Assembly (NCBI RefSeq): GCF_004362715.1
Contig: NZ_SNYC01000005.1
Span: 1,781-65,780, forward strand
DNA: 64,000 bases
Reading direction: 5' to 3'
DNA from: Pedobacter metabolipauper
GTDB lineage: Bacteria; Bacteroidota; Bacteroidia; Sphingobacteriales; Sphingobacteriaceae
Shown piece after piece: positions 30,555 through 49,668 of this stretch (positions within the stretch are counted from its first letter, which is position 1; every line of letters starts with the position of its first letter). The position numbers and the translations under genes were made by a program. The notes below the pieces were generated by a model that was not told where the DNA came from, did not search any database, and saw only the letters and a list, made by a program, of their open reading frames with translations.

Positions 30555-30565
30555 ATTTTGATAGA

Positions 30566-31324: not shown

Positions 31325-31418
31325 GTGTTTTCATTTAAAAAACTCCATATGGCACCCTGCTCAAACCTAACTTTGAAGCAAAGCACCAAAGGAGTAATAA
31401 AAAATAATTATTAACTAC

Positions 31419-32108: not shown

Positions 32109-32122
32109 CGTTTGATTTTTAA

Positions 32123-33334
32123 TTATAAAGCGCCATAAAAAGTCAGTTCTGAAAGCTGCAGGTATGGCACGCTACCCCAGGTAGAAACGGTTTTAAACCT
32201 CCAGTATCTAAAATTACCGGCATTACCTTCAACTTCAAACTCTTCCCCATTCTTTGCCTGTGCAATGTCTTCTGCGGTGACTACGCCCAGCGGACTTCCT
32301 GAAGGTTTTACAGATTTGAATGAGCCTACCAGTGTCCAGCTATCGAAACTTGCTGCAGGACTGTTACTTCCCCACAATTCAAATTCCAAAGGTTGTCCGC
32401 CAATAAAGACATTCCGGTCTGATATTGGAACATCGGCATAGAGGATAAAGCGGCTCAATCTAAATGGTTGGATCATGTCAAATGTAAACCACTGCGGCAT
32501 TACCGACGAAGGCTTGGTCTGGAAGATGGTACTGTTTTGTGCATGGAGACCGTCAAACAGGATTACCAAAGGTCTTGCCCTACCCTGACCGGTATGGTAC
32601 TCCCAGGTATCGTTGGACAGCGTAAGTGCCGCAAACTTTGTGGTGATCAGGGCTTCTTTAAATGGTGTTAAGGTTAGGGAGGCTGTATCACTTCTGTTGT
32701 TCCAGCGATCGGTTACATATACTGCAAAGTCCCGTGCAACAGGTTCCAGTCCGCGGGTACGGATGCGGCCGATCTTTGCACTTGAATAGGCCGTTTGAAT
32801 TTCCTGCCATTTATCTGCTGCATCTTTGGCCAGTACATGAAAGACCACGCTGCTTCCTGTATAATTCTTGAAATCAACATTTAAACCACCAAAGGCTGCA
32901 TACATGGAACCGTTTAGTTTAACGCTGTCGATCAGCAATTTATGTGATGGACGGAGTGCTTTGATCTTAGCCATGATCGGTTCAGACTCTACGTCGCCGA
33001 GCCCAACCGCTCTGAGCTGAATGTCATATTCTCCCTCGCTTGCAAACCCATCTACCTGGATGGTATTTTTATAGACCGTAGATTTTGATTCCCGTACTTG
33101 TCCGGAATTTAGGGTATAAGTGGCTTTCACATATCTAAGATCACTACCTTCTGGCAGGTCATAAGTAATGATGGCTCCCCCTGGAATGGACTCGTAAGTA
33201 TAATTTTTAACTGGCCCCGGAGTTTCTCCGGTCTTTAGTGCTTTTGGAACCAGATCTTTTTCGCAAGATGCTGCTGCCATAAGCACTACGGCCAACAATG
33301 CGATATGTATTTTCTGTATGATTTTCATATCCAT
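32123..33334 (-). CDS. DUF4959/DUF5126/DUF5000-type surface glycan-binding lipoprotein (PUL2)
   Basis: 403 residues from ATG 33334; the lipobox AAASC lies near residue 24. Order: two Ig-like domains (PGPVKNYTYESIPGGAIITYDLPEGSDLRYVKATY, then SMYAAFGGLNVDFKNYTGSSVVF), followed by a discoidin-like C-terminal domain (WFTFDMIQPFRLSRFILYAD, FELWGSNSP, YWRFKTVSTWGSVPYLQLSELTFYG). These three-domain lipoproteins are typical SusCD partners (SGBP role). An ATG seven codons upstream at 33355 overlaps the susD stop by 7 bp. Confidence 0.85.
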   Translation of the reverse strand: MDMKIIQKIHIALLAVVLMAAASCEKDLVPKALKTGETPGPVKNYTYESIPGGAIITYDLPEGSDLRYVKATYTLNSGQVRESKSTVYKNTIQVDGFASEGEYDIQLRAVGLGDVESEPIMAKIKALRPSHKLLIDSVKLNGSMYAAFGGLNVDFKNYTGSSVVFHVLAKDAADKWQEIQTAYSSAKIGRIRTRGLEPVARDFAVYVTDRWNNRSDTASLTLTPFKEALITTKFAALTLSNDTWEYHTGQGRARPLVILFDGLHAQNSTIFQTKPSSVMPQWFTFDMIQPFRLSRFILYADVPISDRNVFIGGQPLEFELWGSNSPAASFDSWTLVGSFKSVKPSGSPLGVVTAEDIAQAKNGEEFEVEGNAGNFRYWRFKTVSTWGSVPYLQLSELTFYGAL

Positions 33335-33348
33335 ATTTTTAAATGATT

Positions 33349-35268: not shown

Positions 35269-35274
35269 CTTCTG

Positions 35275-38200
35275 TTATAGATCTAGTTTTAACCCAAAAT
35301 TGAATACACGCTGAAGCGGATAAGCCAGTCCGTTGCCACCCATTTCCGGGTCCCATAGGTTGAAGGAACTGACCTTAAATAAGTTGGTACCACTCACATA
35401 CAATCTAAGCGCGTCCACTTTGATCCTCCTGGTAAAACTTTTGTTGAGGGTGTAACCCAGTTCTACCTGCTTTAAACGCAGGAATGAACCATTCCTTAAC
35501 CAATAGGTACTGGTCTGGGTGTTGTTATTCATTGCTGTTGTGCTTAAACGGGGCCAAAGGGCGTATACATTCTGGTTTTCTTCGGTCCAGTGACTATCGG
35601 CAATGGCCTGAAGCACTGCCTTTGGCGTTGTAATGTTACCAAATGGGGCGATCCCCTGGGTAGCATCGCCGGGCTGAGACGAAACCGGCGAAATGAACAG
35701 TGAAGTATTGGCTACACCGGAGAAAAAGAAAGAGAAGTCAAAATTTTTAAAGCCGGTAGATAAGCCGAACCCATAATTGATTTCTGGGGTGGTAGGATAA
35801 CCGATAGGCACCATATCATCTGCATTCACTTTTCCATCTCCGTTAACATCTACATACTTAATGTCTCCACCTCTTACTATAGATCCGAAGGACTGTTCCG
35901 GGCTGTTGGCAACTTCATCATCGTCTACAAACAATCGCTCTGCAATATAGCCGCGCTGCTGACTGGAGGCAAGTCCGATCCTGCTCAGGTATGGATACGT
36001 GTAATAAGGTTCTTCATATTCAATATATTTACCCTGGGCAATGGTAAATGTACCTCTTCCCTGAAACCAAAGATCGCCGTTCACGATCTTGTTGAAGGAA
36101 GCTTCCATATCCAGACCCTGACTTCTGTATTTACCAAGGTTTACCAATGGTGAATTGACCAGCCCCAGTGAAGATGGCAGTGATGCCCGCGACTGTACAA
36201 TGTCTTTACGGTCCTGACGATAAACATCAGCAGTAACGGTTAGTGCACCTTTGAACATTCCAAGATCTACACCTAAGTTTGTCTGTCTGGAGCGCTCCCA
36301 GCGCACTGTAGGATTCTCATAGCGGTTGGTAGAGATCCCGTTAACCGTTGTCAGGTTTCCAGGTGTACCGAACGAGAAACCGAAGTTGGGATTGTTCAGG
36401 TTAACATCTGACAGGTAGAAAAAACGTTCATCGGAGATGGCATCGTTTCCGACCATACCATGGGTTAGCCTTAACCTTAAGGTATTGATCAGGTCTTTAA
36501 CCGGCTCCATGAACTTCTCATTGTTGATGGTCCAGGCCAGGCCTCCTGAGGGGAAGAAACCCCATCTGTATTTATCTGAGAAGCGTTCAGAGCCATTGTA
36601 ACCAAATGCAAACTGCGCATGGAAACGGTTATCATAAGCGTAGGTAAAGCTTCCGGAAAAACTAACGTTCCTGAACGGCAGGGTATTTAACAGGGTGAAA
36701 TTATCATCACTCGGCTGGGTAATGTTGTTTCTAAGGGTATTGATGACCATACCGGTTACACCATGTTTGTTGAAGGTACGGTTATAAGAAAAGGCATTTT
36801 CCATGTAGAACAACGCAACCAGTCCTCTTCCGCTTGGCTCAAAATTCAGGGTTTCTGTTCCTGTATTCGGGTTAAGGTTGGTATAGGTATATGCTCCCGT
36901 ATTTGGATCTATCGCACCGGGGGTATAGTAAAAAGGATTGTACTGTCTTACAATACGGTATTCTGATTTGCGTGTTAGGTTGGCCAGACTCCGGAAGCTG
37001 AATCCTTCGGTAATAAAGGAAGACAGGTCCTGTCTTAGTTCTACCTGGGCCTGCATGTTGTTTGAATTGCGTTCCTGGTAACCCCTTACGACATTGGCAT
37101 AAGGATTCCTGAAGGTTCCATTGCTGAAATTACCAAACATCGGATGATCGATATAACTTTGCTGGGGACCAGGGGTATACACGGGCTGAAACATAACCGG
37201 GTTAGATGTTAGTGCCTGTGCATAGGCTTCACTGCCAGTTACCGGCGGACCAGAATAGATTTGGAAGTTACCGATGGTCCTTACCATTAGCTGTGTAGAC
37301 TTAGTCAGGTTAAAGTTGATGTTGCTTCTTAAGTTATAAGTTTTAAAATCTACATTGGTGTTGAAGTTATTGATCGGATTTACCTTTAAAAGTCCATTGT
37401 CCTGGGTTAGGCTACCGCTTACGGCGTAGGTAGCCAGATTCCCTCCCCCGCTGATGCTGAGGCTATAATTTTGTGTAGTGGTATGATCTTTAGTCAGCAT
37501 ATCCAGCCAGTTTACTGCTGGATACAGGAGTGGATTGGCACCGGCTGCTGTCATCGCGATCTTCTCATCCGAATAAAAGGGAACATCTGGCTGACGCGTC
37601 ATGATCGCTTCATTGCTCATTTTCATAAAGGTTACCGGATCTGCGATCTGTAAGTCTTGTGTAGCCACCGAAAGCCTTTGTTCAGCACGAAAGCTTAGCC
37701 TTGCCGGACCGGAAGTTCCTTGTTTTGTGGTGACTACGATCACTCCATTTGCGCCCCTTGATCCGTATACGGCCGATGAGGTTGCATCTTTCAGAATAGA
37801 AAAACTTGCGATATCATCTGGCGGGATCCTTGCCAGTTCATCTGTGGTGACCTCCATATTATCGATCAGGATCAATGGTTTCTTGTTGACCCCAAAAGAA
37901 CCTACTCCACGGATAAAGAAATCGGCATTGTCCAATCCTGGCTCCCCGCTTCTCTGAAATGAAACGAGTCCGCCAATCCTGCCCTGCAATGCAGCGGTAA
38001 GGTTACTGGATGGGATCTTGAGGTCTTTTGGAGAAATGCTGCTTACGGCCCCGATTAAGTCACTCTTCCTTTGAAGATTTCCAAAGGCGGTTACCACAAC
38101 CTCATCCAGAACGTCATCAGATTCCCTCAAGGTAACATTGATGATCCTGTTCTTGCCTACCGGGACTTCCTGTACCTTAAAACTAATCATGGAAAAGACC

Positions 38201-38748
38201 AGTGTGGAACCATCGGGAACGCTCAGGATATAGCGGCCGTTTAAATCCGTTGCTGTTCCAATACTGGGTTTACTCTTTACGGTAACCGATACCCCCGGTA
38301 AGATCGCTCCGGTGGTATCTTTCACGATTCCGGAAACCTGAATGTCCTGCTGCACTACGGGTGCCGGTACCGGAACTGCGGGTGCTGTTCCTTTTTTTAT
38401 GACAATTATATTTTCATTTAGTGTCCAGCTGAGGTTTTGTCCTTTAAAGAACTTATCCAGCACCGCTTTAATATCGGCCTGCTTAAAATTTACATCCAGC
38501 ACGGGTGCATGATCTATCAGATCGCCATCGCAAACTACCTGGTAAGAAGTTTGCCTGGTTATTTCTTTAAATACGGTCTTAATGGATGCGCTTTTTTGGT
38601 TAAATGTAATTTTCTGAGCAAAACCGGCTGCACTGATCTTAAGACAGAGCACAACGATTAGAAAAAAAGTTACTTTCATTATACGCGAGATTTGATAATT
38701 AGGCATAAAGAGGACAAAGTCCTGCCTAATAAATTCGTGAAAATTCAT
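35275..38748 (-). CDS. SusC-type TonB-dependent transporter with N-terminal STN signalling domain (PUL2)
   Basis: 1157 residues. The true start may be the ATG at 38679 (MKVTFFLIVVLCLKISAAGFA signal); upstream residues look non-coding. An STN secretin/TonB N-terminal domain follows (~45-120 of the long form: KITFNQKSASIKTVFKEITRQTSYQVV...FKGQNLSWTLNENIIVIKKG), which in FecA-like systems contacts FecR. Then the carboxypeptidase-like domain, plug (RGVGSFGVNKKPLILIDNMEV, SFSILKDATSSAVYGSRGANGVIVVTTKQG) and barrel. It fits signalling through FecR and the ECF sigma factor, and couples import to transcription. Confidence 0.94.
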   Translation of the reverse strand: MNFHEFIRQDFVLFMPNYQISRIMKVTFFLIVVLCLKISAAGFAQKITFNQKSASIKTVFKEITRQTSYQVVCDGDLIDHAPVLDVNFKQADIKAVLDKFFKGQNLSWTLNENIIVIKKGTAPAVPVPAPVVQQDIQVSGIVKDTTGAILPGVSVTVKSKPSIGTATDLNGRYILSVPDGSTLVFSMISFKVQEVPVGKNRIINVTLRESDDVLDEVVVTAFGNLQRKSDLIGAVSSISPKDLKIPSSNLTAALQGRIGGLVSFQRSGEPGLDNADFFIRGVGSFGVNKKPLILIDNMEVTTDELARIPPDDIASFSILKDATSSAVYGSRGANGVIVVTTKQGTSGPARLSFRAEQRLSVATQDLQIADPVTFMKMSNEAIMTRQPDVPFYSDEKIAMTAAGANPLLYPAVNWLDMLTKDHTTTQNYSLSISGGGNLATYAVSGSLTQDNGLLKVNPINNFNTNVDFKTYNLRSNINFNLTKSTQLMVRTIGNFQIYSGPPVTGSEAYAQALTSNPVMFQPVYTPGPQQSYIDHPMFGNFSNGTFRNPYANVVRGYQERNSNNMQAQVELRQDLSSFITEGFSFRSLANLTRKSEYRIVRQYNPFYYTPGAIDPNTGAYTYTNLNPNTGTETLNFEPSGRGLVALFYMENAFSYNRTFNKHGVTGMVINTLRNNITQPSDDNFTLLNTLPFRNVSFSGSFTYAYDNRFHAQFAFGYNGSERFSDKYRWGFFPSGGLAWTINNEKFMEPVKDLINTLRLRLTHGMVGNDAISDERFFYLSDVNLNNPNFGFSFGTPGNLTTVNGISTNRYENPTVRWERSRQTNLGVDLGMFKGALTVTADVYRQDRKDIVQSRASLPSSLGLVNSPLVNLGKYRSQGLDMEASFNKIVNGDLWFQGRGTFTIAQGKYIEYEEPYYTYPYLSRIGLASSQQRGYIAERLFVDDDEVANSPEQSFGSIVRGGDIKYVDVNGDGKVNADDMVPIGYPTTPEINYGFGLSTGFKNFDFSFFFSGVANTSLFISPVSSQPGDATQGIAPFGNITTPKAVLQAIADSHWTEENQNVYALWPRLSTTAMNNNTQTSTYWLRNGSFLRLKQVELGYTLNKSFTRRIKVDALRLYVSGTNLFKVSSFNLWDPEMGGNGLAYPLQRVFNFGLKLDL

Positions 38749-38813
38749 ACATTTGGTTATTTGGTTTATTTCTCTGTTGTAACTGGAGTTATTTCGTTTG
38801 GTAAACTGATGTA

Positions 38814-38846
38814 AATACCGGGGGTGTTTCGAGCACCTCTGGTATT
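38814..38846. terminator. Hairpin between fecR and susC
   Basis: AATACC (38814-38819) pairs with GGTATT (38841-38846), and GGTG pairs with CACC inside, with two mismatched positions; loop about TTTCGAG. It sits 21 bp past the fecR stop and 66 bp before susC. T-rich sequence follows only on the plus strand. It may attenuate or process the fecR-susCD mRNA. Confidence 0.5.
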
Positions 38847-38866
38847 ATTTTTATTTTGAAGTAGCA

Positions 38867-39973
38867 CTATTTCATCACAATGATCCTCCTTCCTGCTACT
38901 TTAAAGTGTATATCGCCGGTTAGCTCCAGTATTTCCAGTACTTTAGAGATTTCACTAAACCTGGTCATTGAGCCCCATACTTTTTTATCACTTACATTAT
39001 CTTCATATACAATTTCTACGTTGTACCATCTGGCCACTTGTCTCATGCAATTCTCAATGGGTTCATTTTCAAAAAAGAACAGGTTATTTTTCCAGGCCAC
39101 TTCGGTCTGTACGTCAACATTTGCTACGCGAAAGTTCTCTGCGCGATGTCCTGTAATGGCCTGCTCTCCAGGTTTCAGCAATACTTGCGTGGCGCCTTTT
39201 AACAGTATGCTCCCCTCTAACAGCGTTGTACGGATCTGTGGCTCATCTTCATAACTATTGACGTTAAAACGTGTTCCCAATACCTGTACGGTCTGCTTGC
39301 CAGAGACTACGCGAAATGGTTTTTTTGCATCTTTGGCCACTTCAAAATAGGCTTCACCCTCCAATTCAACCCTGCGTTCGGTTTCGGAAAAGATAATGGG
39401 AAATTTAATTTTAGAGGCGGCGTTTAGGGTTACCAATGTTCCGTCTGGCAGTGCGATATCATACCGACCGCCATTGGGGGTCTTTATGGTATTGTAGGCA
39501 TCTACGGATTTACCGGTTGCCGTATTGACATAGACCAGTTTACCATCGGCAGTTTTGCTGACCTTTACCCCATGCTGGTTGATGGTACCCATCTTTGTGG
39601 CTGTATCCAGCAGCACAGTGGTTCCATCTGAGAGTGTAAGCGTTGCCTGATTTCTTCCAGGTACGATCTTGGCAGCCGCAAGCTCAATGGCATTCCCTTC
39701 TGATGAGTTTTTTTTTATGAAATAAAACGAAATTCCCATCGCTAAAACCAATATGGCGGCGGTACAGATGCGAATAAATAATTTACCAGACTGAGGCCGC
39801 CCGGGCAGTGCTGACCTGATCAGCGACAGATCTTCCAGAAATTCCTTCTCCGAAAGATCAAAAGCACCTGGTTTCCAGTTAAGGTACCAGCGCTCTATAT
39901 ACGCCTGCTCCTTTTCTGTGCATTCACCCCGTTCGTACCTTTCCAATAATTCCTGTAATTCCCTTTTTTCCAT
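38867..39973 (-). CDS. FecR-family anti-sigma factor (PUL2)
   Basis: 368 residues. The cytoplasmic N-terminus (1-60, including ELQELLERYERGECTEKEQAYIERW) should bind the sigma factor; a membrane helix lies at ~66-86 (LFIRICTAAILVLAMGISFYFIKK); the periplasmic FecR domain is ~165-265 (VKTPNGGRYDIALPDGTLVTLNAAS... EGEAYFEVAKDAKKPFRVVSGKQTVQVLGTRFNVNSY); the C-terminal DUF4974-like domain (~295-365) should touch the STN domain of SusC. It is separated from its sigma gene by a GH2 gene. The ECF-type motif at 40008-40037 lies just upstream. Confidence 0.94.
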   Translation of the reverse strand: MEKRELQELLERYERGECTEKEQAYIERWYLNWKPGAFDLSEKEFLEDLSLIRSALPGRPQSGKLFIRICTAAILVLAMGISFYFIKKNSSEGNAIELAAAKIVPGRNQATLTLSDGTTVLLDTATKMGTINQHGVKVSKTADGKLVYVNTATGKSVDAYNTIKTPNGGRYDIALPDGTLVTLNAASKIKFPIIFSETERRVELEGEAYFEVAKDAKKPFRVVSGKQTVQVLGTRFNVNSYEDEPQIRTTLLEGSILLKGATQVLLKPGEQAITGHRAENFRVANVDVQTEVAWKNNLFFFENEPIENCMRQVARWYNVEIVYEDNVSDKKVWGSMTRFSEISKVLEILELTGDIHFKVAGRRIIVMK

Positions 39974-40007
39974 AATTACCTGACGATATGAATTCGCTTA
40001 CGATAGA

Positions 40008-40037
40008 AAGACGAGCAACTGCCGCCGATAGAGTAGA
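40008..40037 (-). promoter_or_regulatory. Candidate ECF promoter, copy A (fecR)
   Basis: On the minus strand: TCTACTCTAT (40037-40028), a 13-bp spacer, TCGTCTT (40014-40008). It is one of three copies with identical spacing in this window. The last base of the TCGTCTT part lies 35 bp upstream of the fecR start, which fits a -10 element followed by a leader of about 25 nt. The CGTC core is common in ECF -10 elements. The link to the sigma factor at 42838-43428 is inferred. Confidence 0.6.
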
Positions 40038-40053
40038 TAAATATTCAATTATT

Positions 40054-42774
40054 TTATTTTTGCAGGATCACCTCCTGATCTGCACCATTAAATCCTCCGG
40101 TAAACAACCTGATCACCTTGTTTTGGATCAGATCTGCAGGAATCTCGATTTGTACCATTTTCTGTTCGCCCGGCAGCAGATTAAAAAAGTTATCGCTGTA
40201 AAATGCAGGCTTAATACTTTTCCCATCCTGGTCTGCCAGCCTGAGCTGGGTAAAGAACGACAGGGAAGTGCCGGTATTTTTCACATTGGCTTTGATGGTT
40301 ATTTTTTCTGCTGACCTGGTTTGACTGGCCTGTGTATTAAGGGTTGTTTTATTTAACTGGTTGATTTCCTGGAATCCGGATACTGCAGGACCTGTCATGG
40401 TCCATGCCCCTTTGTATTCGTCATTTGAGCGCCAATAGAATGCATCAGCAACGAACTTGCCTGAATTATCTGTAAGCACCAGCTTGATGAAATGTACCTG
40501 TGTGATATTTTTTGGAAAGGTTATTTTAAATACATCCTTATTCAGTCCGTCAGCGGGGATGTTGATGGTACTGTCCATGGTTAGCATTTCCTTACTATCC
40601 ATGTTATACACGGTCGCCTTCAGTTTATATCCTTTAAAGGCACGTCTGTAATCGTTATATACTGAAACGGTATTTTTGAAGTAATCGAATTGCGGATGCA
40701 GCGGGGCCAGGCCGTTTTGAGTGTAATACAAGCCTGCAGTGGGTTCTAAAAACCAGTCGTAAAACCTTGCTGAAGTTTGTGGAACAGGGCTGTTGTGGTA
40801 CCAAAATAAAAGGCCGGAGGCAAACCTGTCCCCATAGCCAAATTTATTATAATTCCATACTTCCCAGATCGCCCTGAAGTTCATAGCCCCAACAAACTGT
40901 GCCTTTTTAGCATAATCGTCAAGCGATCCGGGCTTTCCAAATTGCTCCACGGCTTCTCTGTATTTGGTTGTCATTTGATGAAAACCACCTCCATCCAGAT
41001 AGCTCCATACGGCATTATTAGCGGGCCAAAGATCCTTCTCCGGCATCAGTTCCTTTAATGAAGATAGTATGGGCAGTATTGGTGCCCCATATTCTGGATT
41101 AAAACCATCGACCCTGCTTCCTCTCTTAGATGCGGTATTTTCGAAATACTGCATTGGATTTTCATATTTATATGGACTACCATCATGAATTCCGCAGCAT
41201 TCGGATTGTGGTTGATACCCTTTTGTGGGATCCAGCCTGTGAATGAGTTCGGCTGCCCCCTTTATTTCTGTTGATTCATTTGCTGATACATAATACGCAG
41301 AGGAAGCATGGTTTCTGATCCTTTTCACCGTACTTTCCAGGTTTGCAAAGTACAATGCAGTATCTGTAGGGAAACGGGTATCTCCAGTTATCCAGAATTC
41401 ACTCCAAACCAATATTCCGAATTCATCACACAACTGGTAAAAATAATCAGACTCTGCGATGCCCCCACCCCACAACCTTAAAAAATTAATACCTGCCTGC
41501 CGGGTGTATCTCAATTCTGCGTAAGTACGGCTCACTGAATTCCTTAGCATCGCTTCCGGCACCCAGTTGGATCCGCGGATGAAAACCGGATGCCCGTTTA
41601 CGAGGAACCTTCTTGATCGGTCAGGGGTTTGTTGATCTGTGCTGATTTCGCGGATACCAAAGCGCGTGGAAGCTACTGTACCCGCACTCGACGCGCCATC
41701 TGCAGTAAATTTCAAATCCAGGCGATAGAGGTGCTGGTTGCCTTTATTAAGGGGCCACCAAAGTTTCGGTACCCTGATGCGAAGCTGTTTAAACTCGTTT
41801 GGCGTTAGTGTAATTGATCTTCTTTCACCGGCCTTTAAGGTAACTGCTTTGCTAAAACTGATTCCAGCATCTTTAACCTGAACAGACAAAACCCCTCTTT
41901 GCTGCCTGTTGGTGCTGTTAACCAGATCCAACTTTATTGTTTCTTCGGCAGAGGTGGTGTCTGGCAAGGGGAGCTTGGACATTACAAAAACATGCTCGAT
42001 TAAAACCGGGCCGCTGGCAAAAAGTTCTACCTCTCTCCAGATACCGGTGTTTCTATCGCGGATGCCATCGGGAGCGGTAAAGTCCCAGCCAACAGACATC
42101 AGCATGCTCACATTTTTACCCATCTCTCCATCACCACCGTTGGCATTTTCACCAACTGCACCTGCCCTCACGTTTTTAGAGCGGTTGCTTGAGCCTGGTA
42201 TATCTACAGGTTTTACTTTAACGGCCAGGATGTTCTTGCCCTTACGGTTTGCCAATTCTGTAATATCAAACTGCCGGGAATTGAACATGCCAGCCATGGT
42301 GCCAATATTTTTACCATTGAGCCATATTTCAGACCTATAATTGATGCCGTTAAATTTCAACCATATTTTCTTATCGCGAAAGTTGGCCGGGATATCAAAT
42401 TCTGTTCTAAACCAATAATGGTAAAATTCTACACCTGCATCATTCAGATCCGGTATGATTCCCCGCTCCTTTCTATTGTTATCGCCGAAATACGGATCTG
42501 GGTAGACCTTATTGGCGACCAGGCTATTTAAAACAGTTCCTGGCACAACAGCGGGCATCCAGTCTGCTGCAGTATATCCGGCAGATGATAACTTTTCCGG
42601 GCTCACTTGTATTTCACTTACTTTCTTAAATTTCCAGGAGTAATTTGTTTTGGAGATATGATCCGCACTCAGAAATACAGATTGGCTGGATGATCTTGTA
42701 CTTAAAGATCCGTGTTGTGCGAAAACAAATGCTGTGCAGCAAATAAAAAAAAGAGAAAAGTATACAAATTTCAT
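40054..42774 (-). CDS. Secreted glycoside hydrolase family 2 (beta-mannosidase/exo-glucosaminidase-like)
   Basis: 906 residues from ATG 42774 (signal MKFVYFSLFFICCTAFVFAQ). GH2 jelly-roll at ~50-235 (FRTEFDIPANFRDKKIWLKFNGINYRSEIWLNGKNIG), Ig domain, then the TIM barrel (FIRGSNWVPEAML, INFLRLWGGGIAESDYFYQLCDEFGILVWSEFW). Acid/base Glu500 in SANES and nucleophile Glu561 in NPEYG. C-terminal Ig domains follow. The layout matches exo-beta-mannosidase or exo-glucosaminidase (CsxA-like) GH2, specificity uncertain. Copy B of the ECF-type motif lies just upstream. Confidence 0.87.
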   Translation of the reverse strand: MKFVYFSLFFICCTAFVFAQHGSLSTRSSSQSVFLSADHISKTNYSWKFKKVSEIQVSPEKLSSAGYTAADWMPAVVPGTVLNSLVANKVYPDPYFGDNNRKERGIIPDLNDAGVEFYHYWFRTEFDIPANFRDKKIWLKFNGINYRSEIWLNGKNIGTMAGMFNSRQFDITELANRKGKNILAVKVKPVDIPGSSNRSKNVRAGAVGENANGGDGEMGKNVSMLMSVGWDFTAPDGIRDRNTGIWREVELFASGPVLIEHVFVMSKLPLPDTTSAEETIKLDLVNSTNRQQRGVLSVQVKDAGISFSKAVTLKAGERRSITLTPNEFKQLRIRVPKLWWPLNKGNQHLYRLDLKFTADGASSAGTVASTRFGIREISTDQQTPDRSRRFLVNGHPVFIRGSNWVPEAMLRNSVSRTYAELRYTRQAGINFLRLWGGGIAESDYFYQLCDEFGILVWSEFWITGDTRFPTDTALYFANLESTVKRIRNHASSAYYVSANESTEIKGAAELIHRLDPTKGYQPQSECCGIHDGSPYKYENPMQYFENTASKRGSRVDGFNPEYGAPILPILSSLKELMPEKDLWPANNAVWSYLDGGGFHQMTTKYREAVEQFGKPGSLDDYAKKAQFVGAMNFRAIWEVWNYNKFGYGDRFASGLLFWYHNSPVPQTSARFYDWFLEPTAGLYYTQNGLAPLHPQFDYFKNTVSVYNDYRRAFKGYKLKATVYNMDSKEMLTMDSTINIPADGLNKDVFKITFPKNITQVHFIKLVLTDNSGKFVADAFYWRSNDEYKGAWTMTGPAVSGFQEINQLNKTTLNTQASQTRSAEKITIKANVKNTGTSLSFFTQLRLADQDGKSIKPAFYSDNFFNLLPGEQKMVQIEIPADLIQNKVIRLFTGGFNGADQEVILQK

Positions 42775-42800
42775 ATCGTTGGTTATTGTCAATCATCATC

Positions 42801-42830
42801 AAGACGATTAACACGAACGTATAGAGTAGA
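42801..42830 (-). promoter_or_regulatory. Candidate ECF promoter, copy B (GH2)
   Basis: Minus strand TCTACTCTAT (42830-42821), 13-bp spacer, TCGTCTT (42807-42801). It lies between the sigma gene stop (42838) and the GH2 start (42774), so the leader would be about 20 nt. The 30-bp architecture is the same as copies A and C, while the spacer sequences are unrelated, which argues for functional conservation rather than recent copying. Confidence 0.62.
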
Positions 42831-42837
42831 AGAATAG

Positions 42838-43428
42838 TTAAAATATCAGCATTAAAAACCTGGATAGTTTAGGTTTTAATATTTTTAATGCGTTATTGAT
42901 CTGTTTTCTGACGGTTAGCTCAGAGATCTCTAGTTTATCAGAAATTTCCTTGTGGCTGAGGTAGCCTTTCCTGCTGAGGTTAAAAACAATTTTCATCTTT
43001 TCGGGCAGGGCTTCTATCTCTTTATTGATCAGCCTGTGGAGGTCACTTTGTCTCACTGCATGGTCTGTATTACCTGTAGCGGATTCCCAATCTTCATCTA
43101 AAGAATTTGCATACATGATTTCGCGTTTTTTACGCATCACCAGATCGATTATGCGGTTTCTAACTGCCTTATACAAATAAGAAGAAAGCGCAGTTTTTAT
43201 GGTCATCTGGTCCCGCTTAACCCACAAGGTGGTAAACAATTCATGAATGAGGTCTCTTGCTTCGTCCCTGTCCTTTAAACGACGGTAAGCATGAATATAC
43301 AACAGCCCGCTATACCTGTTATATATTTCAGTATAGGCACCGTGGTCACCGTTACAGAGTAACGCAAACAATTCATCGTCTGAGTACAGTTGATAGCTAG
43401 GCATATTTGGATGAACTAAGATATACAT
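42838..43428 (-). CDS. ECF RNA polymerase sigma factor (PUL2)
   Basis: 196 residues from ATG 43428; ATG 43404 (MPSYQLYSDDELFALL) is also plausible. Region 2: FALLCNGDHGAYTEIYNRYSGLLYIHAYRRLKDRDEARDLIHELFTTLWVKRD and SYLYKAVRNRIID. Region 4: IEALPEKMKIVFNLSRKGYLSHKEISDKLEISELTVRKQINNALKILK. This is the Bacteroidota FecI-like ECF group that pairs with FecR and an STN-type SusC. Its likely promoter motif occurs three times nearby. It may also be reached by transcription from the dehydrogenase/isomerase genes upstream. Confidence 0.93.
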   Translation of the reverse strand: MYILVHPNMPSYQLYSDDELFALLCNGDHGAYTEIYNRYSGLLYIHAYRRLKDRDEARDLIHELFTTLWVKRDQMTIKTALSSYLYKAVRNRIIDLVMRKKREIMYANSLDEDWESATGNTDHAVRQSDLHRLINKEIEALPEKMKIVFNLSRKGYLSHKEISDKLEISELTVRKQINNALKILKPKLSRFLMLIF

Positions 43429-43481
43429 TTTTAGCAAACCCAATTATATCATTGTTGTAATTTATTATTATATATGTTTAC

Positions 43482-43530
43482 GTAGCTAAATAATTACGCA
43501 ATGAATTTAAGAAGCGGCATATTTCAGGCT
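43482..43530 (+). pseudogene. Relic of an arsR start with its operator
   Basis: GTAGCTAAATAATTAC (43482-43497) resembles the two operators of the arsR gene at 47416, and it stands exactly 3 bp before an ATG at 43501, as there. The next codons give MNLRSGIFQA against [10 protein letters not shown] of the intact ArsR, with ATGAATTTAAGAAG identical in DNA. Similarity ends near 43530, just before the isomerase stop codon on the other strand. It is a truncated 5' end with no remaining domain. Confidence 0.65.
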
Positions 43531-43537
43531 TTCCATT

Positions 43538-44461
43538 TTATTTTTTGTACTGTTCCAGAATTTTCTCAAGCAAAGCCCTGGTCTTTCTAATGCCTTCTTC
43601 TTCCGAAAAACCATTTCCCTCCCATTCAATTCCTACTATCCCCCTGAATTTTGCGTCATGAATGATCTTGAACATACGTGTATAGTCGATATCCGGCTCA
43701 TTGCCCTGCTCATCAAACCTGAAGGTCTTTGCGCTGATGCCTTTAGCAAAAGGCATCAGTTCTTTTACACCCTGATAAATGTCATATTGCTGAGTATCGC
43801 TGATCTTAAAATTTCCAAAATCTGGCAGGGTACCGCAATACGGACTGTTTACACCTTTCATCACATCAGATAACCATTTACCATTGGACGAGTAACTGCC
43901 ATGGTTTTCTACAACGATGTTGATCTTATTCTTCTTCCCGTATTCTGTTAGCCGGCCGAGTCCGTCAATCACTGCCGTTTTCACATCACTTTCCGGGCCT
44001 TTCCCTAAAGCATTAACCCTTAACGTAAGGCAGCCCAGTGTTTTTGCTGCATCTACCCATTTATAATGGTTCTCCACCGCTTTGATCCGCTCCTTTTCAT
44101 CCAGGTTACCTAAATCACCTTCATGATCTACCATGATCAGGTGGTTCTGTATCCCTTCATTTTTGGTTATGGTCAGCAATTCCCTGAGATAGGCCTGATC
44201 GGTTTCTTTGTTGTTGAAAAAACGACTTACATATTCTACGATATCAATTCCAAAGTCCTTTTTGGCTTTTAGCGGAAATTCCAAATTGGTCATCTTTCCA
44301 GCAAATAATGCCTTGTGGAAAGAATACTGTGCGAGGGAGATTCGGAAGAAGTCTTTTTTTTCCATTGCCAATACATCTAATGGTAATATAGTGCTCATAC
44401 TTGTTGCTGCAGTGATTAAGCTCATATCCCTGATAAAGCTTCTGCGGTCCTGTATTTTCAT
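43538..44461 (-). CDS. Tat-exported sugar phosphate isomerase/epimerase (xylose isomerase-like TIM barrel)
   Basis: 307 residues. A twin-arginine signal at the N-terminus (DRRSFIRDMSLITAATSM). The TIM barrel (AP endonuclease 2 superfamily) shows ISLAQYSFHKALF, GIDIVEYVSRFF, NIVVENHGSYSS with a metal Glu, GTLPDFGNF, KGISAKTFRFD and IVGIEWEGNG; these Glu, Asp and His positions fit a divalent metal site. The likely job is isomerising or epimerising a (keto)sugar in the periplasm. It lies 13 bp after the PQQ dehydrogenase fusion gene, pointing to a two-step periplasmic sugar oxidation. Confidence 0.85.
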   Translation of the reverse strand: MKIQDRRSFIRDMSLITAATSMSTILPLDVLAMEKKDFFRISLAQYSFHKALFAGKMTNLEFPLKAKKDFGIDIVEYVSRFFNNKETDQAYLRELLTITKNEGIQNHLIMVDHEGDLGNLDEKERIKAVENHYKWVDAAKTLGCLTLRVNALGKGPESDVKTAVIDGLGRLTEYGKKNKINIVVENHGSYSSNGKWLSDVMKGVNSPYCGTLPDFGNFKISDTQQYDIYQGVKELMPFAKGISAKTFRFDEQGNEPDIDYTRMFKIIHDAKFRGIVGIEWEGNGFSEEEGIRKTRALLEKILEQYKK

Positions 44462-44474
44462 AATTTTAATATTA

Positions 44475-47144
44475 TTATATGCCCAGCATGTTGATGAATG
44501 ATATTTTTTGGTCTTTTTCTGTAAAGACCAGCCAAAGGTTATGCTTGCCTTTTGTTTCCTTCAAGCCGGCAATAGAAGAACCGTTTGTAGTCTTTCCGAT
44601 TATTGGTCCTGCTGGCGAATCCAGATGGACCTCTATGGCACTGGTGCTATTTCCTGCCATCACAAACTCCATCCCTTTCAATTCTGTCAGGTCAATTTCC
44701 TTTAGCTGAAGAAAAGCTCCAGCTATTTTAGCACTGGCAACGGTCCTATCTTTGTTAAAGTTCATTTGATTGGAACCATCGGTATTATTTACCGGGATAT
44801 TCGGGTTTTTCAGCACCACAATATGTTCTCCAAATTGCGCCGGGGCGAATTTTGTTCCCCGGTCTTTATATGCTGCGCGGAAGATGAAGGTACCTTTATT
44901 GGTTTGTCCTTGTTTTACATTTGTTGTATACGTTCCCTTAACCGGAAGGTTTTTCCCTACAGGGTTCTTTTTACTGAGGCTCAGGATATACTTAATGATA
45001 GAATTGACTTCAGTTTGCGACATGGAAGAATGCGCAGGCATCATGGCATCACCCCACACTCCCGAGCCTCCGCTGATCACTTTTTTAGCCAATACTGCTT
45101 CCGCAGTTTTGCTGCCCTGGTATTTTAAGGCTACCTGTTTGAAGGATGGCCCGAGTGATTTGGTATCCAGCGCATGACAAGCATTGCAGTCGCTTTTCTT
45201 AATCAGACCCTTTGCAGACGCAAATTGTGCGCTGACATCAAATGTTTTTTGCTGTTGGGCGATCACGGTCATGTCATATCCTTCTGAAAGGTAATTTATG
45301 GATACGGCGACCTGTGGAGAAAGGATCCGCTTGCTGGCCAGACTTCCATCCTCTTTATCGGTTACACTTACCGCATATCTGATGGTCTTGCCTGGGAAAT
45401 AAAAGCTGGAATTTCCACTGATAAAATCAAACTTCACAACCGGAACCGCATTTCCTGCTGCAATCTCTACTGTTTTACTATTTTTTGCTCCGCCAGGATC
45501 CGTTACGGTAAGCACGGCTTTATAGATACCTGGTGTATTGAGCAAGAGTTCTGGATTGGCTAACTGGCTCCTGTAGCGTACTACGCCTGCCCTGCTGATC
45601 TTCCAATCATATTTTAATGAATCTCCATCGGCATCTGCAGTACCTGCGGAGGATAGGTTCACTTTCAAGGGTAAGGCTCCGGCAGTTTTACTGGCTGCTA
45701 CCTGTACCGCTGGTTTCCGGTTGCCGCCATTGAATTCTATGCGGATCAGTTCAGCCTCGGGATTGTCTTTGAAATAACCATTTCCATATTCCAATACATA
45801 CAGGCTGCCATCCGGGCCGAATTTCATGTCTATGGCCCCGTATAGTTTGAGATCAGGGAGAAAACGCTCCATTGATTTATAATTACCCAATTCATCGAGT
45901 GTTACAGACAGGATCCAGCCCCGTACCCAATCGGTGATCAGCCATTTGCCTTCATAGTAGGCAGGAAAAACCCTGGCCCCATTTTTAAAATCAGACTTGT
46001 GAAAGACCGGACCGCCAACTGCACTTCTTCCGCCGCTCCCCATTTCAGGAAATTCCGGGCTGATCACATATGGATACCAGATCATTGCGCCTATTGCCGG
46101 CGGCAGCATTTGCTGCCCTGTATTGTTCGGTGATTTGTTCAATGGTTTAAGCGGATCATACAGCTCACCTGATTTTTTTGTAGCAAAATCATAGTTCCGA
46201 TAGGCCTGGTTATCCCCTACAAAATATGGCCAGCCATAATTACCTGCCTTTTTAGCCATGTTAAACTCATCATAGGACCTTGGACCTCTACTTTCCGATC
46301 CATTTGAACCATCAGGACCTACTTCTCCCCAGTAAAGCCAGTTCGTTTTACTGTCAACCGTTAGCCGCCACGGATTTCTGTTGCCCATGGTATAGATCTC
46401 TGGTCTTGTGTTCGGTGTTCCTTCAGGGAAAAGATTGCCCGCGGGTATGGTATAGGTGCCATCCGCTTCGGGATGGATCCTCAGGATCTTACCCCGCAGG
46501 TCGTTGGTATTACCTGATGATTTCTGTGCATCCCTGGGGGCTGCTCCCGGGCGTTCATCTATTGGTGTGAAGCCATCTGAGGATTTGGAGTAAGTATTGT
46601 CTCCCGTGCTTAACAGCAAGTTCTTGTCTTTATCGAATACCATACCGCCACCGACATGACAGCATTCTTCGCGCTGCACGATCACATCGAGGACTTTTTT
46701 TTCAGTTGACAGGTTCAGCCTTCCACCTTTCCAGGTAAAGCGCGACAGCCGGTTGACCGATTCATTTTTAGGTGAATAGAAGATGTATATCCAGTGGTTG
46801 ATGGCATAGTCAGGATCGAGGATCACTCCCTGAAGTCCATCTTCCCCTTCGCTGCTTTCACCGCTTTTTTTCAGGTATTCCCGGCTTACCTGTAAATCGG
46901 CTATGACTTCCATCTTATTGGTTGCCGGGTCATAAAGTTTTAGCTTACCCTTCCGTTCTGCATACAACACCTTTCCGCCATCCATAATCTGGAACTGCAT
47001 CGGTTCTTCCAGCTTTTGAGCCAGTACAACCTTCGTAAACCTGTTGGTTTCAGGTTTACCTTCTTGTGCAACAACAGGCAACTGCAACAAAAGCAGTAAC
47101 AAAAGGCTAAGCCCTTTAAGACCAATAATTTGATTCATTCTCAT
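44475..47144 (-). CDS. PQQ-type sugar dehydrogenase fused to PKD, cytochrome c and a carbohydrate-binding-like domain
   Basis: 889 residues from ATG 47144. Signal peptide 1-27. The glucose/sorbosone dehydrogenase propeller spans ~30-480 (GLQGVILDPDYAINHWIYIFYSP, HVGGGMVFDKDKNLLLSTGDN, GKILRIHPEADG, PEIYTMGNRNPWRLTVD, KFGPDGSLYVLEYG). A PKD domain follows (~490-580, ADADGDSLKYDW), then a class I cytochrome c with C653-x-x-C656-H657 (DCNACHALD) and a distal Met (AMMPAHSSM), and a CBM6-like end domain. Electrons could pass from the sugar through PQQ to the haem inside one polypeptide. Copy C of the ECF motif is upstream. Confidence 0.87.
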   Translation of the reverse strand: MRMNQIIGLKGLSLLLLLLLQLPVVAQEGKPETNRFTKVVLAQKLEEPMQFQIMDGGKVLYAERKGKLKLYDPATNKMEVIADLQVSREYLKKSGESSEGEDGLQGVILDPDYAINHWIYIFYSPKNESVNRLSRFTWKGGRLNLSTEKKVLDVIVQREECCHVGGGMVFDKDKNLLLSTGDNTYSKSSDGFTPIDERPGAAPRDAQKSSGNTNDLRGKILRIHPEADGTYTIPAGNLFPEGTPNTRPEIYTMGNRNPWRLTVDSKTNWLYWGEVGPDGSNGSESRGPRSYDEFNMAKKAGNYGWPYFVGDNQAYRNYDFATKKSGELYDPLKPLNKSPNNTGQQMLPPAIGAMIWYPYVISPEFPEMGSGGRSAVGGPVFHKSDFKNGARVFPAYYEGKWLITDWVRGWILSVTLDELGNYKSMERFLPDLKLYGAIDMKFGPDGSLYVLEYGNGYFKDNPEAELIRIEFNGGNRKPAVQVAASKTAGALPLKVNLSSAGTADADGDSLKYDWKISRAGVVRYRSQLANPELLLNTPGIYKAVLTVTDPGGAKNSKTVEIAAGNAVPVVKFDFISGNSSFYFPGKTIRYAVSVTDKEDGSLASKRILSPQVAVSINYLSEGYDMTVIAQQQKTFDVSAQFASAKGLIKKSDCNACHALDTKSLGPSFKQVALKYQGSKTAEAVLAKKVISGGSGVWGDAMMPAHSSMSQTEVNSIIKYILSLSKKNPVGKNLPVKGTYTTNVKQGQTNKGTFIFRAAYKDRGTKFAPAQFGEHIVVLKNPNIPVNNTDGSNQMNFNKDRTVASAKIAGAFLQLKEIDLTELKGMEFVMAGNSTSAIEVHLDSPAGPIIGKTTNGSSIAGLKETKGKHNLWLVFTEKDQKISFINMLGI

Positions 47145-47320
47145 TTTTAACTTACTATTTATGCTGTAATTTACTTCTAAAAGTTTAGATGTACACCAGA
47201 GACAGAGAGCTTGCACATGCTGGTTGCCTTTACACGTGGTCGCCCATCACTCAATTGGTTCTCTTAAATGCTTTTATTTCATAATTTCCAGGCAGCAGCA
47301 TAGATCTGCTTATCCTGAAC

Positions 47321-47350
47321 AAGACGATTGGCTTTCCTTCATAGAGTAGA
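47321..47350 (-). promoter_or_regulatory. Candidate ECF promoter, copy C (dehydrogenase module)
   Basis: Minus strand TCTACTCTAT (47350-47341), 13-bp spacer, TCGTCTT (47327-47321). The predicted leader to the dehydrogenase start at 47144 is about 170 nt, longer than for copies A and B. It also lies only 21 bp before the first arsR operator, so the ArsR protein and the sigma factor may affect the same divergent region. Confidence 0.55.
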
Positions 47351-47370
47351 TAAAATTAAGAATTATTTGC

Positions 47371-47412
47371 GTAGTTAAATAACTACACGTATACTTGTAG
47401 TCAAATAGCTAC
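47371..47412 (+). promoter_or_regulatory. Two tandem ArsR-type operators
   Basis: GTAGTTAAATAACTAC (47371-47386) has perfect 7-bp arms around AA; GTAGTCAAATAGCTAC (47397-47412) is a less perfect copy 26 bp further on, ending 3 bp before the arsR ATG. The second would block translation start or promoter clearance, so negative autoregulation is likely. A third related site is at 43482-43497. Confidence 0.6.
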
Positions 47413-47415
47413 ATA

Positions 47416-47739
47416 ATGAATTTAAGAAGAGATGTATTTCAGGCCATAGCAGATCCCACCAGGAGGGCGATACTCCTGCTGGTTGCTTCGCAATCAATGA
47501 CTGCTGGTGCCATTGCCGCCAACTTTGACACGGCCAGACCAACTGTTTCCAAGCATCTGCAGATCCTTACCGAATGTGAATTGCTGAAGCAGGAGCAAAA
47601 TGGCAGGGAGATCCATTACTATATCAACGCTAAAAAAATGAAAGCGGTAGCTGAATTTATTGAACCCTTCCGTCAGATGTGGGACGACAGATTCAATAAA
47701 CTGGAAGCCATTATGAAAAATTACAAACCTGACCAATAG
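47416..47739 (+). CDS. ArsR-family metalloregulator-like repressor
   Basis: 107 residues. Winged helix with [62 protein letters not shown], the classic ArsR layout. No CxC metal motif in the recognition helix region, so it is probably a non-metal sensor of the type that controls SRPBCC genes. It starts a three-gene operon (7 bp to SRPBCC, 6 bp to DoxX) and probably represses it through the two operators upstream. Confidence 0.93.
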
Positions 47740-47746
47740 AAAACCT

Positions 47747-48211
47747 ATGGAAAACAAGACCAAGATCAATGCTGAAGATGGTAAACAAGACCTGGTGATT
47801 ACCAGGGAATTTGACCTGCCTCTGGAATTGCTGTTTAAAGCCTATGTAGAGCCCGAAATTGTGGAACAATGGATGGGAACGAAAGTGCTGCTGCTTGAAA
47901 GTAAAAAATACGGCAGTTATCAATTTGAAACAACCGATCCCACTGGAAACAAACATGGTTTTAATGGGGTGATCCATGATTTTATTCTGAATGAAAAGAT
48001 CACGCGGACATTTGAAATGGAGAACACCCCATTTCCAGTATGGCTGGAATATCTCGAATTTGAAAGACTAAGTTCGGATACCAGCAAACTTACCATGCAT
48101 GTGGTATATAAATCGGCTGCGCTGAGAGATCAGCTGCTGCAGCTGCCTTTTGCCCAGGGCATAAACTGGGCACATAACCGACTGCAAGAAATTGTAACCA
48201 AACTAAAATAA
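47747..48211 (+). CDS. SRPBCC (AHSA1-type) ligand-binding protein
   Basis: 154 residues with the START/Bet v1-like pattern: DLVITREFDLPLELLFKAYVEPEIVEQWMG, YGSYQFETTDPTGNKHGFNGVIHDF, ITRTFEMENTPFPVWLEYLEFERL and a long C-terminal helix (FAQGINWAHNRLQEIVTKL). The family binds hydrophobic ligands or stabilises partners; the ligand is unknown. Standard partner of an ArsR regulator in Bacteroidota. Confidence 0.9.
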   Translation: MENKTKINAEDGKQDLVITREFDLPLELLFKAYVEPEIVEQWMGTKVLLLESKKYGSYQFETTDPTGNKHGFNGVIHDFILNEKITRTFEMENTPFPVWLEYLEFERLSSDTSKLTMHVVYKSAALRDQLLQLPFAQGINWAHNRLQEIVTKLK

Positions 48212-48217
48212 CCAACC

Positions 48218-48604
48218 ATGACCACAAAGACTATCAAAATTATCTATTGGATTGCCACCATCTGGCTCGCGCTGGGCATGACCTCAACTGGAATTGTGCA
48301 ATTGTTAAAGTTGAAAGACGAAGCCGACATGATGAAAAGCCTGGGTTATCCGCTCTATTTTCTAACCCTGCTGGGTGCTTGGAAAATTCTGGGCGTTGTA
48401 GCGGTGTTAATCCCCAGGTTTCCATTGCTGAAAGAATGGGCCTATGCAGGCTTTTTCTTTACGATGACTGGTGCGATCTTTTCTCACTTTGCTATTGGTG
48501 ATGATGCCATATCATTTTTTGGACCCGTGCTGTTATTAGTGCTGACTGTTGTATCATGGTATTTCAGGCCGGAGGGTAGAAAAATTGGCTGCCCCATTAT
48601 TTGA
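48218..48604 (+). CDS. DoxX-like integral membrane protein
   Basis: 128 residues with four predicted helices (IKIIYWIATIWLALGMTSTGIVQLL; YFLTLLGAWKILGVVAVLIP; WAYAGFFFTMTGAIFSHFAIG; FGPVLLLVLTVVSWYF). The GAWKILGVVAVLIPRFPLLKEWAYAGF loop is typical of DoxX-type proteins. Role not proven; related proteins take part in oxidative-stress membrane complexes. Last gene of the arsR operon, convergent with the GntR gene. Confidence 0.88.
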   Translation: MTTKTIKIIYWIATIWLALGMTSTGIVQLLKLKDEADMMKSLGYPLYFLTLLGAWKILGVVAVLIPRFPLLKEWAYAGFFFTMTGAIFSHFAIGDDAISFFGPVLLLVLTVVSWYFRPEGRKIGCPII

Positions 48605-48648
48605 TCCACTCTTCGAACTTGAATCAGAAATAGATCAAACTTATCATA

Positions 48649-49659
48649 CTACAATGATTGACGGCTATAAAAAATAAACTTATTTTTAACGGTGCTCCTG
48701 TCTTTTTTCAGGAGCAACTCAGCCGCTGTCCTTCCCATGGCTGCGAAGTCTGTGCTTACCACCGTGATTCCTAAAAGTTCCTTCCAGGCTGTTTCATTAA
48801 AAGACAGCAGCCCAATATCGTGTCCCATGATCAGTTTTGATGTTTTGATCTTTTTGACTGCTATTCCAAGTTCATCGTCTGTAAGCACAATATAAGCGGT
48901 TCCCTCTTTCATTACAACATCGCTTATATCTTCTGTTAGTATAAATTCTTTATTCTGGCTATGACAGAAAGCCCTGATCCCGGACACAATTTCTATGGAT
49001 TGGTTACTTTGTTCAGCTAAAATGAGATTGACGGCATCATATTTATCGAATGCATCTTTTCCGTTCATCAGTGCATCAAAGATATCGTGTTCAAAATCCT
49101 GATAAACATTGATTACCTCCCTTTCCAATTGGACCTGTTCGTCCAGAACAACTAGCTTAGAAGCGGTAACTGTATTCAACAAGTGGACATAAGCCGAACT
49201 TTGATTGCCTTTTAAGCCTTGTGGCATCACTACAAAGTAGTGGTATAGGTCTCTGTTTGCTTCAATGATATCCTTAAATATCTCGATACTGTTATGAAAG
49301 ATCTGAATGTCTACTTTCGAATTTTGACCCAAACCATGAACAAATGATTCGTACACCTCCTTTTTATAATCATTAAGCTCGTTCAAGATCATTAAAACCC
49401 TGATTTCCTTCAGGGCTCCCCTGACTACATAAAACCCTTTTCCCGCTACACTGACTATATACCCCTGACTACGCAGCAAATTATAGCCATTTTCAACCGT
49501 CTCCTTAGCAATCTTATGATTTTTGCTGAATTCCCTGATCGATGGCAAACAAGAATTGACTGGCAGAATTCCCGCTTCTATATCAATCATGATTGACCTG
49601 GCCATCTGTTGATGCTTAGCAACCTTTGAATGCTTATCTATAAAAATTTCGTATGGCAT
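48649..49659 (-). CDS. GntR-family regulator with LacI-like effector domain (PUL3)
   Basis: 336 residues. GntR winged helix at 1-75 (KHQQMARSIMIDIEAGILPVNSCLPSIREFSKNHKIAKETVENGYNLLRSQGYIVSVAGKGFYV), then a periplasmic-binding-protein-like effector domain (~85-330, including GHDIGLLSFNETAWKELLGITVVSTDFAAMGRTAAELLL), the same layout as LacI-type sugar sensors. The gene is 9 bp after the second GH127-type gene and closes the PUL3 transcript, so it probably senses a released sugar or an intermediate and adjusts PUL3. Confidence 0.88.
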   Translation of the reverse strand: MPYEIFIDKHSKVAKHQQMARSIMIDIEAGILPVNSCLPSIREFSKNHKIAKETVENGYNLLRSQGYIVSVAGKGFYVVRGALKEIRVLMILNELNDYKKEVYESFVHGLGQNSKVDIQIFHNSIEIFKDIIEANRDLYHYFVVMPQGLKGNQSSAYVHLLNTVTASKLVVLDEQVQLEREVINVYQDFEHDIFDALMNGKDAFDKYDAVNLILAEQSNQSIEIVSGIRAFCHSQNKEFILTEDISDVVMKEGTAYIVLTDDELGIAVKKIKTSKLIMGHDIGLLSFNETAWKELLGITVVSTDFAAMGRTAAELLLKKDRSTVKNKFIFYSRQSL

Positions 49660-49668
49660 AATTATGCG

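Follow-up and report, generated by a model that had tools for sequence, protein, structure and literature searches.

The FecA-FecR-FecI system, known from ferric citrate uptake in Escherichia coli and from its glycan counterparts in Bacteroidota, clusters an extracytoplasmic function (ECF) sigma factor with a FecR regulator and a TonB-dependent receptor carrying an STN signalling domain, and its promoter lies ahead of the transport operon. A locus of this kind occurs in Pedobacter metabolipauper on a stretch of 64,000 nucleotides (assembly GCF_004362715.1, contig NZ_SNYC01000005.1, positions 1,781 to 65,780 of the forward strand), which was analysed at its full length and is called the window hereafter. 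The minus strand of the window carries three copies (A, B and C) of a two-part element, TCTACTCTAT-N13-TCGTCTT, which, judging from sequence comparison, is very probably the promoter (-35, TCTACTCTAT; -10, TCGTCTT) for the FecI-type ECF sigma factor whose gene lies nearby, at 43404-42838.

The FecI protein of E. coli is described in a passage of one source as controlling a single promoter (PMC9249621). The present locus has three promoter copies, not one; furthermore, a glycoside hydrolase family 2 (GH2) gene splits the sigma gene from fecR, and the ligand is presumably a glycan. As in ECF promoters in general, the element consists of two boxes with CGT in the -10, and the 16 nucleotides that separate ACTCT of the left box from CGTC are the usual ECF promoter spacing. 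It departs from them in its -35, TCTACTC(T/C)AT, which is not of the AAC type. The likely source of the ECF group motifs is said to be Casas-Pastor 2021, and a sigma-promoter residue code is reportedly given by Todor 2020. Excerpts of PMC8103513 quote AAC (-35) and CGT (-10) as early ECF hallmarks, rules that later definitions are stated to have abandoned, and refer to a code linking residues to bases in ECF promoters; a passage of PMC9723704 reports CGT boxes in a flavobacterium. The motif SM6 of Flavobacterium psychrophilum has been connected with genes of type IX secretion and with several candidate sigma factors, whereas the present element goes with one sigma factor and one glycan cluster. 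A parallel in function is offered by SigW-1 and SigH-1 of Bacteroides thetaiotaomicron, ECF sigma factors that likewise act on polysaccharide utilisation genes; according to PMC12596196, their promoters fit a -30/-10 motif that is non-canonical, and the SigW-1 motif analysis is reported as non-significant by its own authors. The sequence near -10 is TGTT in that case and CGTC in ours. ECF promoters in Bacteroidota are called hard to predict in an extract of PMC3878776. A search of the open-access literature found no description of the element, a result that does not in itself establish that it has not been described. The locus is a system of the FecI-FecR kind with an ECF-type promoter whose -35 is unusual, and one sigma factor with three promoters is unusual as well.

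Results

Three identical copies in one genome

An exact search of the window recovered the three copies that a preliminary description had noted, with identical boxes and with spacers (CGGCGGCAGTTGC, ACGTTCGTGTTAA and GAAGGAAAGCCAA) that are unlike in sequence and each 13 nucleotides long. The gene coordinates bear out that all of them are intergenic and stand ahead of minus-strand genes:

40008 to 40037, minus strand: predicted promoter copy A, in the gap from the GH2 stop (40054) to the fecR ATG (39973), with fecR, susC, susD and the DUF4959/5126/5000 and DUF4998 genes downstream
42801 to 42830, minus strand: predicted promoter copy B, in the gap from the sigma stop (42838) to the GH2 ATG (42774)
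47321 to 47350, minus strand: predicted promoter copy C, between divergent arsR (47416, plus strand) and the dehydrogenase ATG (47144), a sugar isomerase-like gene following the dehydrogenase

Copy B follows immediately on the stop codon of the sigma gene, 26 nucleotides from the GH2 ATG, and the last box base of copy A is followed by the fecR ATG at 34 nucleotides. The right box of all three copies, TCGTCTT, contains the CGT of the -10 type. The window holds no match to the two-box pattern beyond A, B and C when up to three mismatches are allowed; shuffled windows contain 0.08 matches on average, and none of 100 shuffles reaches three. At the scale of the genome (5,251,143 bases, 11 contigs), with spacers of 11 to 15 nucleotides, the three copies are the sole exact matches and the reversed control pattern has none. 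Other predictors gave little: the RNA family search of 30000-50000 returned nothing above the gathering score, sigma-70-type promoters (16 against 21.2 in shuffles) were not predicted above chance, and neither were terminators (13 against 10.1, standard deviation 3.8).

The element accompanies related sigma genes

Relatives of the sigma factor were collected from 201 genomes of the family and 145 genomes of the genus (about 30 best loci each), together with 37 loci of named genomes, and 114 sigma-fecR pairs were chosen among the fetched loci for having fecR close behind the sigma gene. The occurrence of the motif beside related sigma/fecR loci, which the preliminary description had named as a check, was indeed found in other genomes: a two-part element made of TCTAC with a C-rich continuation and, further on, CGTCT is visible by eye behind many of these sigma genes. 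The closest sigma factors in named genomes (65-66% identity) belong to Pedobacter sp. KBW06, P. steynii and P. hiemivivus, and their sigma-fecR gaps read TCTACTCTAT-ACCCCTGAGTTAA-TCGTCT in two and TCTACTCCAT-ACCCCAAGGTTAT-TCGTCA in one, always with N13 spacers and with intergenic sequence outside the element that is unlike our own. Copy B occupies the position of the promoter in the relatives, from the sigma stop to fecR, and shares 8 of its 13 spacer bases, GTTAA included, with Pedobacter sp. KBW06 and P. steynii.

Expectation-maximisation run de novo on 49 non-redundant sigma-fecR junctions from elsewhere (sigma identity of at least 45%) produced a two-part motif of the same kind, TTTTTTCTACSCCCAA...GTTAACCGTCT, which scores at least 10 in 46 of the 49 junctions and in 0.4% of shuffled ones; when held out in five-fold training, 43 of the 49 still reach this score. 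The position weight matrix (PWM) built from the other genomes was run on both strands of the window, and copies B (28.2 bits), A (24.8) and C (20.2) took ranks 1 to 3, the next position scoring 13.3 and the maximum in 20 random Markov windows being 18.9. The copies keep ranks 1 to 3 when sigma factors of at least 60% identity are left out (26.5, 23.0 and 18.5, next 14.5; 47 loci remaining) and when all sigma factors with a TVRK helix are left out (21.7, 18.2 and 16.3, next 12.9; 39 loci remaining).

The two boxes follow different regions of the sigma factor

Fifty of the 114 pairs were retained for comparison (PWM score of at least 10, non-redundant), a choice that excludes loci with very different left boxes. 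Allowing one-base shifts, the spacing is the same in 45 of them and one longer in 5, and the right boxes contain CGT in 28 and GTC in 37. Each sigma factor was matched with its closest neighbour in one protein region at a time, the choice being restricted to proteins no more than 60% identical overall. Neighbours by the recognition helix (region 4.2) agree best in the left box (identity 0.728, right box 0.632), neighbours by region 2 agree best in the right box (0.776, left box 0.637), and neighbours by the rest of region 4 give 0.547 and 0.653 for left and right, respectively. In a bootstrap over 28 clusters, the 95% interval for the advantage of helix over region 2 is 0.025-0.151 at the left box and that of region 2 over helix 0.028-0.227 at the right box; the same split appears at cut-offs 0.65 and 0.70. 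Spearman coefficients with the right box are 0.27 for region 2 and 0.14 for the helix, and those of the spacer with either box are 0.01 and 0.07. As expected for an ECF promoter, these comparisons suggest that the left box is the -35 read by region 4.2 and the right box the -10 read by region 2.

The pairing can also be followed helix by helix, in groups that consist of related sequences and are not independent events. TVRKQ goes with TCTACYCYAT in 8 of 9 cases (the ninth being TCTACCCCCT), TVKKH with YTACGCC in 7 of 7, TVKNQVN (TVKNQVNNALKIL) with TCTGGGCC in 3 of 3, TVK(T/S)T with TTACCCCC in 5 of 5, and SDKTVKKQI with TCTACTACC in 4 of 4, one of them a locus of the same genome (L040).

The association with sigma genes and the behaviour of the boxes also bear on the possibility that the element, instead of being a sigma promoter, serves as operator for a classical DNA-binding activator or repressor of the cluster. 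A regulon operator would likewise show three identical sites ahead of probably co-regulated genes, and ArsR and GntR-like genes do adjoin the cluster. We nevertheless consider this explanation improbable: to the eye the element shows no palindrome, it tracks FecI-type sigma genes across genomes, its boxes co-vary separately with regions 4.2 and 2, its right box has the CGT ascribed to the ECF -10, and the arsR gene has near-palindromes of its own nearby.

Occurrence in the genus and the other sigma factors of the genome

The shortened pattern TCTACTCTAT-N13-TCGTC is found in 4 of the 145 Pedobacter genomes, with three copies in our own and one each in G382, G405 and G436, and these are the same four genomes in which a sigma match of at least 65% identity was found, the matches listed elsewhere being at most 56% identical. 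If independent, such a coincidence would have a chance of 1 in about 17.7 million, which is not a clean probability because the genomes are related and the site is at the sigma locus in three of the four. In G405 the site at the sigma locus is a one-base variant and the exact match sits on another contig. This exact copy (C45:183508; L165 9509-9916) precedes a LytTR-like frame, named by eye, that is seemingly frameshifted near a T run; it may be a chance match, given those found by the reversed controls in these genomes, and is left out of the supporting evidence.

The relaxed pattern TCTACYCYAT-N13-YCGTCT has 11 matches in the 145 genomes: our three, seven beside sigma relatives and the one on C45 of G405. 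The seven (G233, G230, G120, G158, G382, G266 and G436) start 22-63 nucleotides past the end of the sigma match, and the TVRKQ helix is present in six of these sigma factors; the seventh (G436, L111) presumably dropped out of the helix comparison as redundant with L109. With the full TCGTCTT box, a search of 399 family genomes returned our own genome and a single match with a spacer of 11 nucleotides (G097), taken as chance, 6 of the 399 genomes holding a match to the reversed control. Relatives read TCGTCTA or TCGTCA, which this pattern was too strict to capture.

It could also be imagined that the element is the promoter of another ECF sigma factor and that the neighbouring one is a bystander. 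In the genome of 5.25 Mb, which also has 32 FecR domains, the sigma model of Bacteroidota has 67 matches, 20 of them over its cut-off; this number makes cross-recognition conceivable. We regard a bystander role as very improbable, however, since the 4 of 145 genomes with the motif are also those in which this sigma factor was found, the exact box pair is at no other locus of the genome, and the TVRKQI helix is present in this sigma factor only among the 30 of the 67 whose proteins were read, the remaining 37 being weaker matches. By eye, the loci of this genome with a TVKN helix (L026, L175, L187, L188, L191 and L193) have GTAC in the apparent left box of the fecR junction (6 of 6), which apparently marks a second promoter family in this genome.

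Gene cluster

On the minus strand the genes follow the order dehydrogenase, isomerase-like, ECF sigma factor, GH2, fecR, susC, susD, DUF4959/5126/5000 and DUF4998, and profile searches bear out the gene names of the preliminary description:

44475 to 47144, minus strand: glucose/sorbosone dehydrogenase (GSDH) of the pyrroloquinoline quinone (PQQ) type, with PKD and cytochrome c domains
43538 to 44461, minus strand: xylose-isomerase-like TIM barrel (PF01261)
42838 to 43404, minus strand: ECF sigma factor of the FecI type found in Bacteroidota (TIGR02985; 127.1 bits against a cut-off of 126.4), with ISELTVRKQINNALKILK as its recognition helix
40054 to 42774, minus strand: GH2 with exo-glucosaminidase/mannosidase-like domains (profile search), between sigma and fecR
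38867 to 39973, minus strand: FecR anti-sigma/sigma regulator (PF04773 and PF16344, both over the cut-off)
35275 to 38748, minus strand: SusC-type TonB-dependent receptor with N-terminal STN signalling domain (PF07660, 29.9 bits, cut-off 28.4)
33349 to 35268, minus strand: SusD (profile search)
32123 to 33355, minus strand: DUF4959/DUF5126/DUF5000 protein (profile search), probably a surface glycan-binding protein
31419 to 32108, minus strand: DUF4998 protein (profile search)

The sigma start is better placed at the ATG at 43404 (MPSYQ..), because two relatives start with MPAYQ and MPGYQ. A search of solved structures by sequence returned 11 sequences, all sigma factors, the best being SigW (5wuq). 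The arsR gene is followed by AHSA1 and DoxX-like genes. Beside it, at 47361-47422 and close to copy C, stand a near-palindrome, GTAGTTAAATAACTAC, and a second, weaker one, which may constitute the arsR operator. A 48-nucleotide repeat (79%) joins 47397-47444 to 43482-43529, so that a decayed arsR operator-like palindrome with the first codons of arsR stands ahead of the sigma gene; this suggests that the dehydrogenase and isomerase genes were inserted between arsR and the sigma gene, or that the region was duplicated.

Discussion

The proposal that the element is the promoter of the local ECF sigma factor is supported by its uniqueness in the genome, by its presence beside related sigma genes, by the ranking of the three copies with a matrix from other genomes and by the way each box tracks a sigma region. 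Several observations weigh against it. In the genus-wide comparison no more than 22 sigma candidates were scored in any one genome, and the four genomes with the motif are related. Reversed controls in the 145 genomes are not zero, with 3 matches for the exact pattern and 6 for the relaxed one; it is therefore the place of the matches, not their number, that carries the argument. In our own genome, mismatched matches elsewhere are not commoner than the controls (5+5 against 15+17 for the reversed pattern with up to three mismatches), and they are to be taken as noise because the control outnumbers the pattern. The correlation of helix and -35 is modest (partial Mantel 0.21, permutation p 0.0055), and the raw Spearman coefficients with the left box are close (helix 0.24, region 2 0.19). 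A one-residue code, in which N in TVKN calls for GGG, held in 4 of 5 cases in the 50-locus set, but GGG is present in 0 of 5 TVKN loci of our own genome (L175, L187, L188, L191 and L193); since it failed there, prediction is claimed for the whole helix only. Copy C taken alone is marginal: its 20.2 bits are barely above the random maximum and fall below it in the left-out models, its leader is long (176 nucleotides) and its spacer lacks the GTT present in those of A and B. The lead is also narrow when the matrix is limited to the two boxes (15.2 for each copy, 13.2 for the next position). The left box lacks the AAC of the early ECF -35, and relatives read, for example, TCTACYCY, TTTACGCC or TCTGGGCC. 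A weak terminator-like stem was called over copy A (40026-40010). Finally, a second local promoter copy was found in none of 16 relatives' loci, so the extra copies have no counterpart at the orthologous place; these 16 are the loci among 36 (L072-L107) that combine a sigma-fecR pair with a site scoring 8 or more, and 6 of them have doubtful sites (score under 11).

The question arises as to how one sigma factor could have come to be associated with three promoters. The fecR gene is not directly behind the sigma gene here, GH2 intervening, and tblastn gave no match to GH2 in the loci of nine relatives. Because copy B holds the promoter place of the relatives and shares spacer bases with them, GH2 has seemingly moved in between the sigma gene and fecR, copy A now serving fecR. 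Outside the set of 16 loci, a second sigma factor of G382 (61%; L166, C1:838408-838771) has three promoter copies exactly 168 nucleotides apart before fecR, with apparent decayed fecR 5' ends between them, and in G405 (L144, C1:583936) a promoter copy with one mismatch and a fecR 5' remnant stand ahead of a GH67 (alpha-glucuronidase family) gene, an intact fecR being absent from the stretch read. In related genomes sigma-fecR junctions thus appear to be copied, and the same process may have shaped the present locus. That A, B and C are themselves recent functionless duplications, such as repeat or mobile-element ends, is scarcely credible, even though the locus with copies 168 nucleotides apart indicates that junctions do duplicate: identity is confined to the boxes, the copies fall outside each of the 20 largest repeat families listed, and the differing spacers and flanks argue for selection on the boxes and not for recent copying.

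By analogy with FecA-FecR-FecI, we infer a signalling chain from SusC/SusD through STN and FecR to the sigma factor. At rest, FecR in the inner membrane would hold or prime the sigma factor; through its STN domain, SusC would report to FecR that a substrate has arrived at SusC/SusD, upon which the sigma factor would be freed or primed. The active holoenzyme would then start transcription at A, B and C and switch on three units together, namely fecR-susCD with the surface proteins, GH2, and the dehydrogenase-isomerase pair, presumably in response to a sugar. Transcripts from copy C may read on into the sigma gene and raise the sigma factor, because this gene lies behind the isomerase gene and no minus-strand terminator was called between the two. 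Such a feedback would be a local addition, as the search of 16 loci in relatives showed no second promoter copy nearby.

Sequence alone was thus enough to arrive at the probable cognate promoter of a FecI-type sigma factor, and the approach, which combines the footprint of the sigma-fecR junction with co-variation by sigma region, should carry over to many other sigma factors. The locus is also a tangible example of a single FecI-type sigma factor that seems to have acquired extra enzyme genes. It is tempting to generalise, and we consider it about evenly balanced whether FecI-type sigma factors of Sphingobacteriaceae each have a private -35 that is predictable from the whole recognition helix. 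If so, genomes without transcript data could suffice for reading the promoters and regulons that belong to hundreds of glycan clusters, and regulons would grow, as the GH67 locus and the tandem triple promoter in related Pedobacter suggest, by copying the sigma-fecR junction, promoter included, ahead of new enzyme genes.

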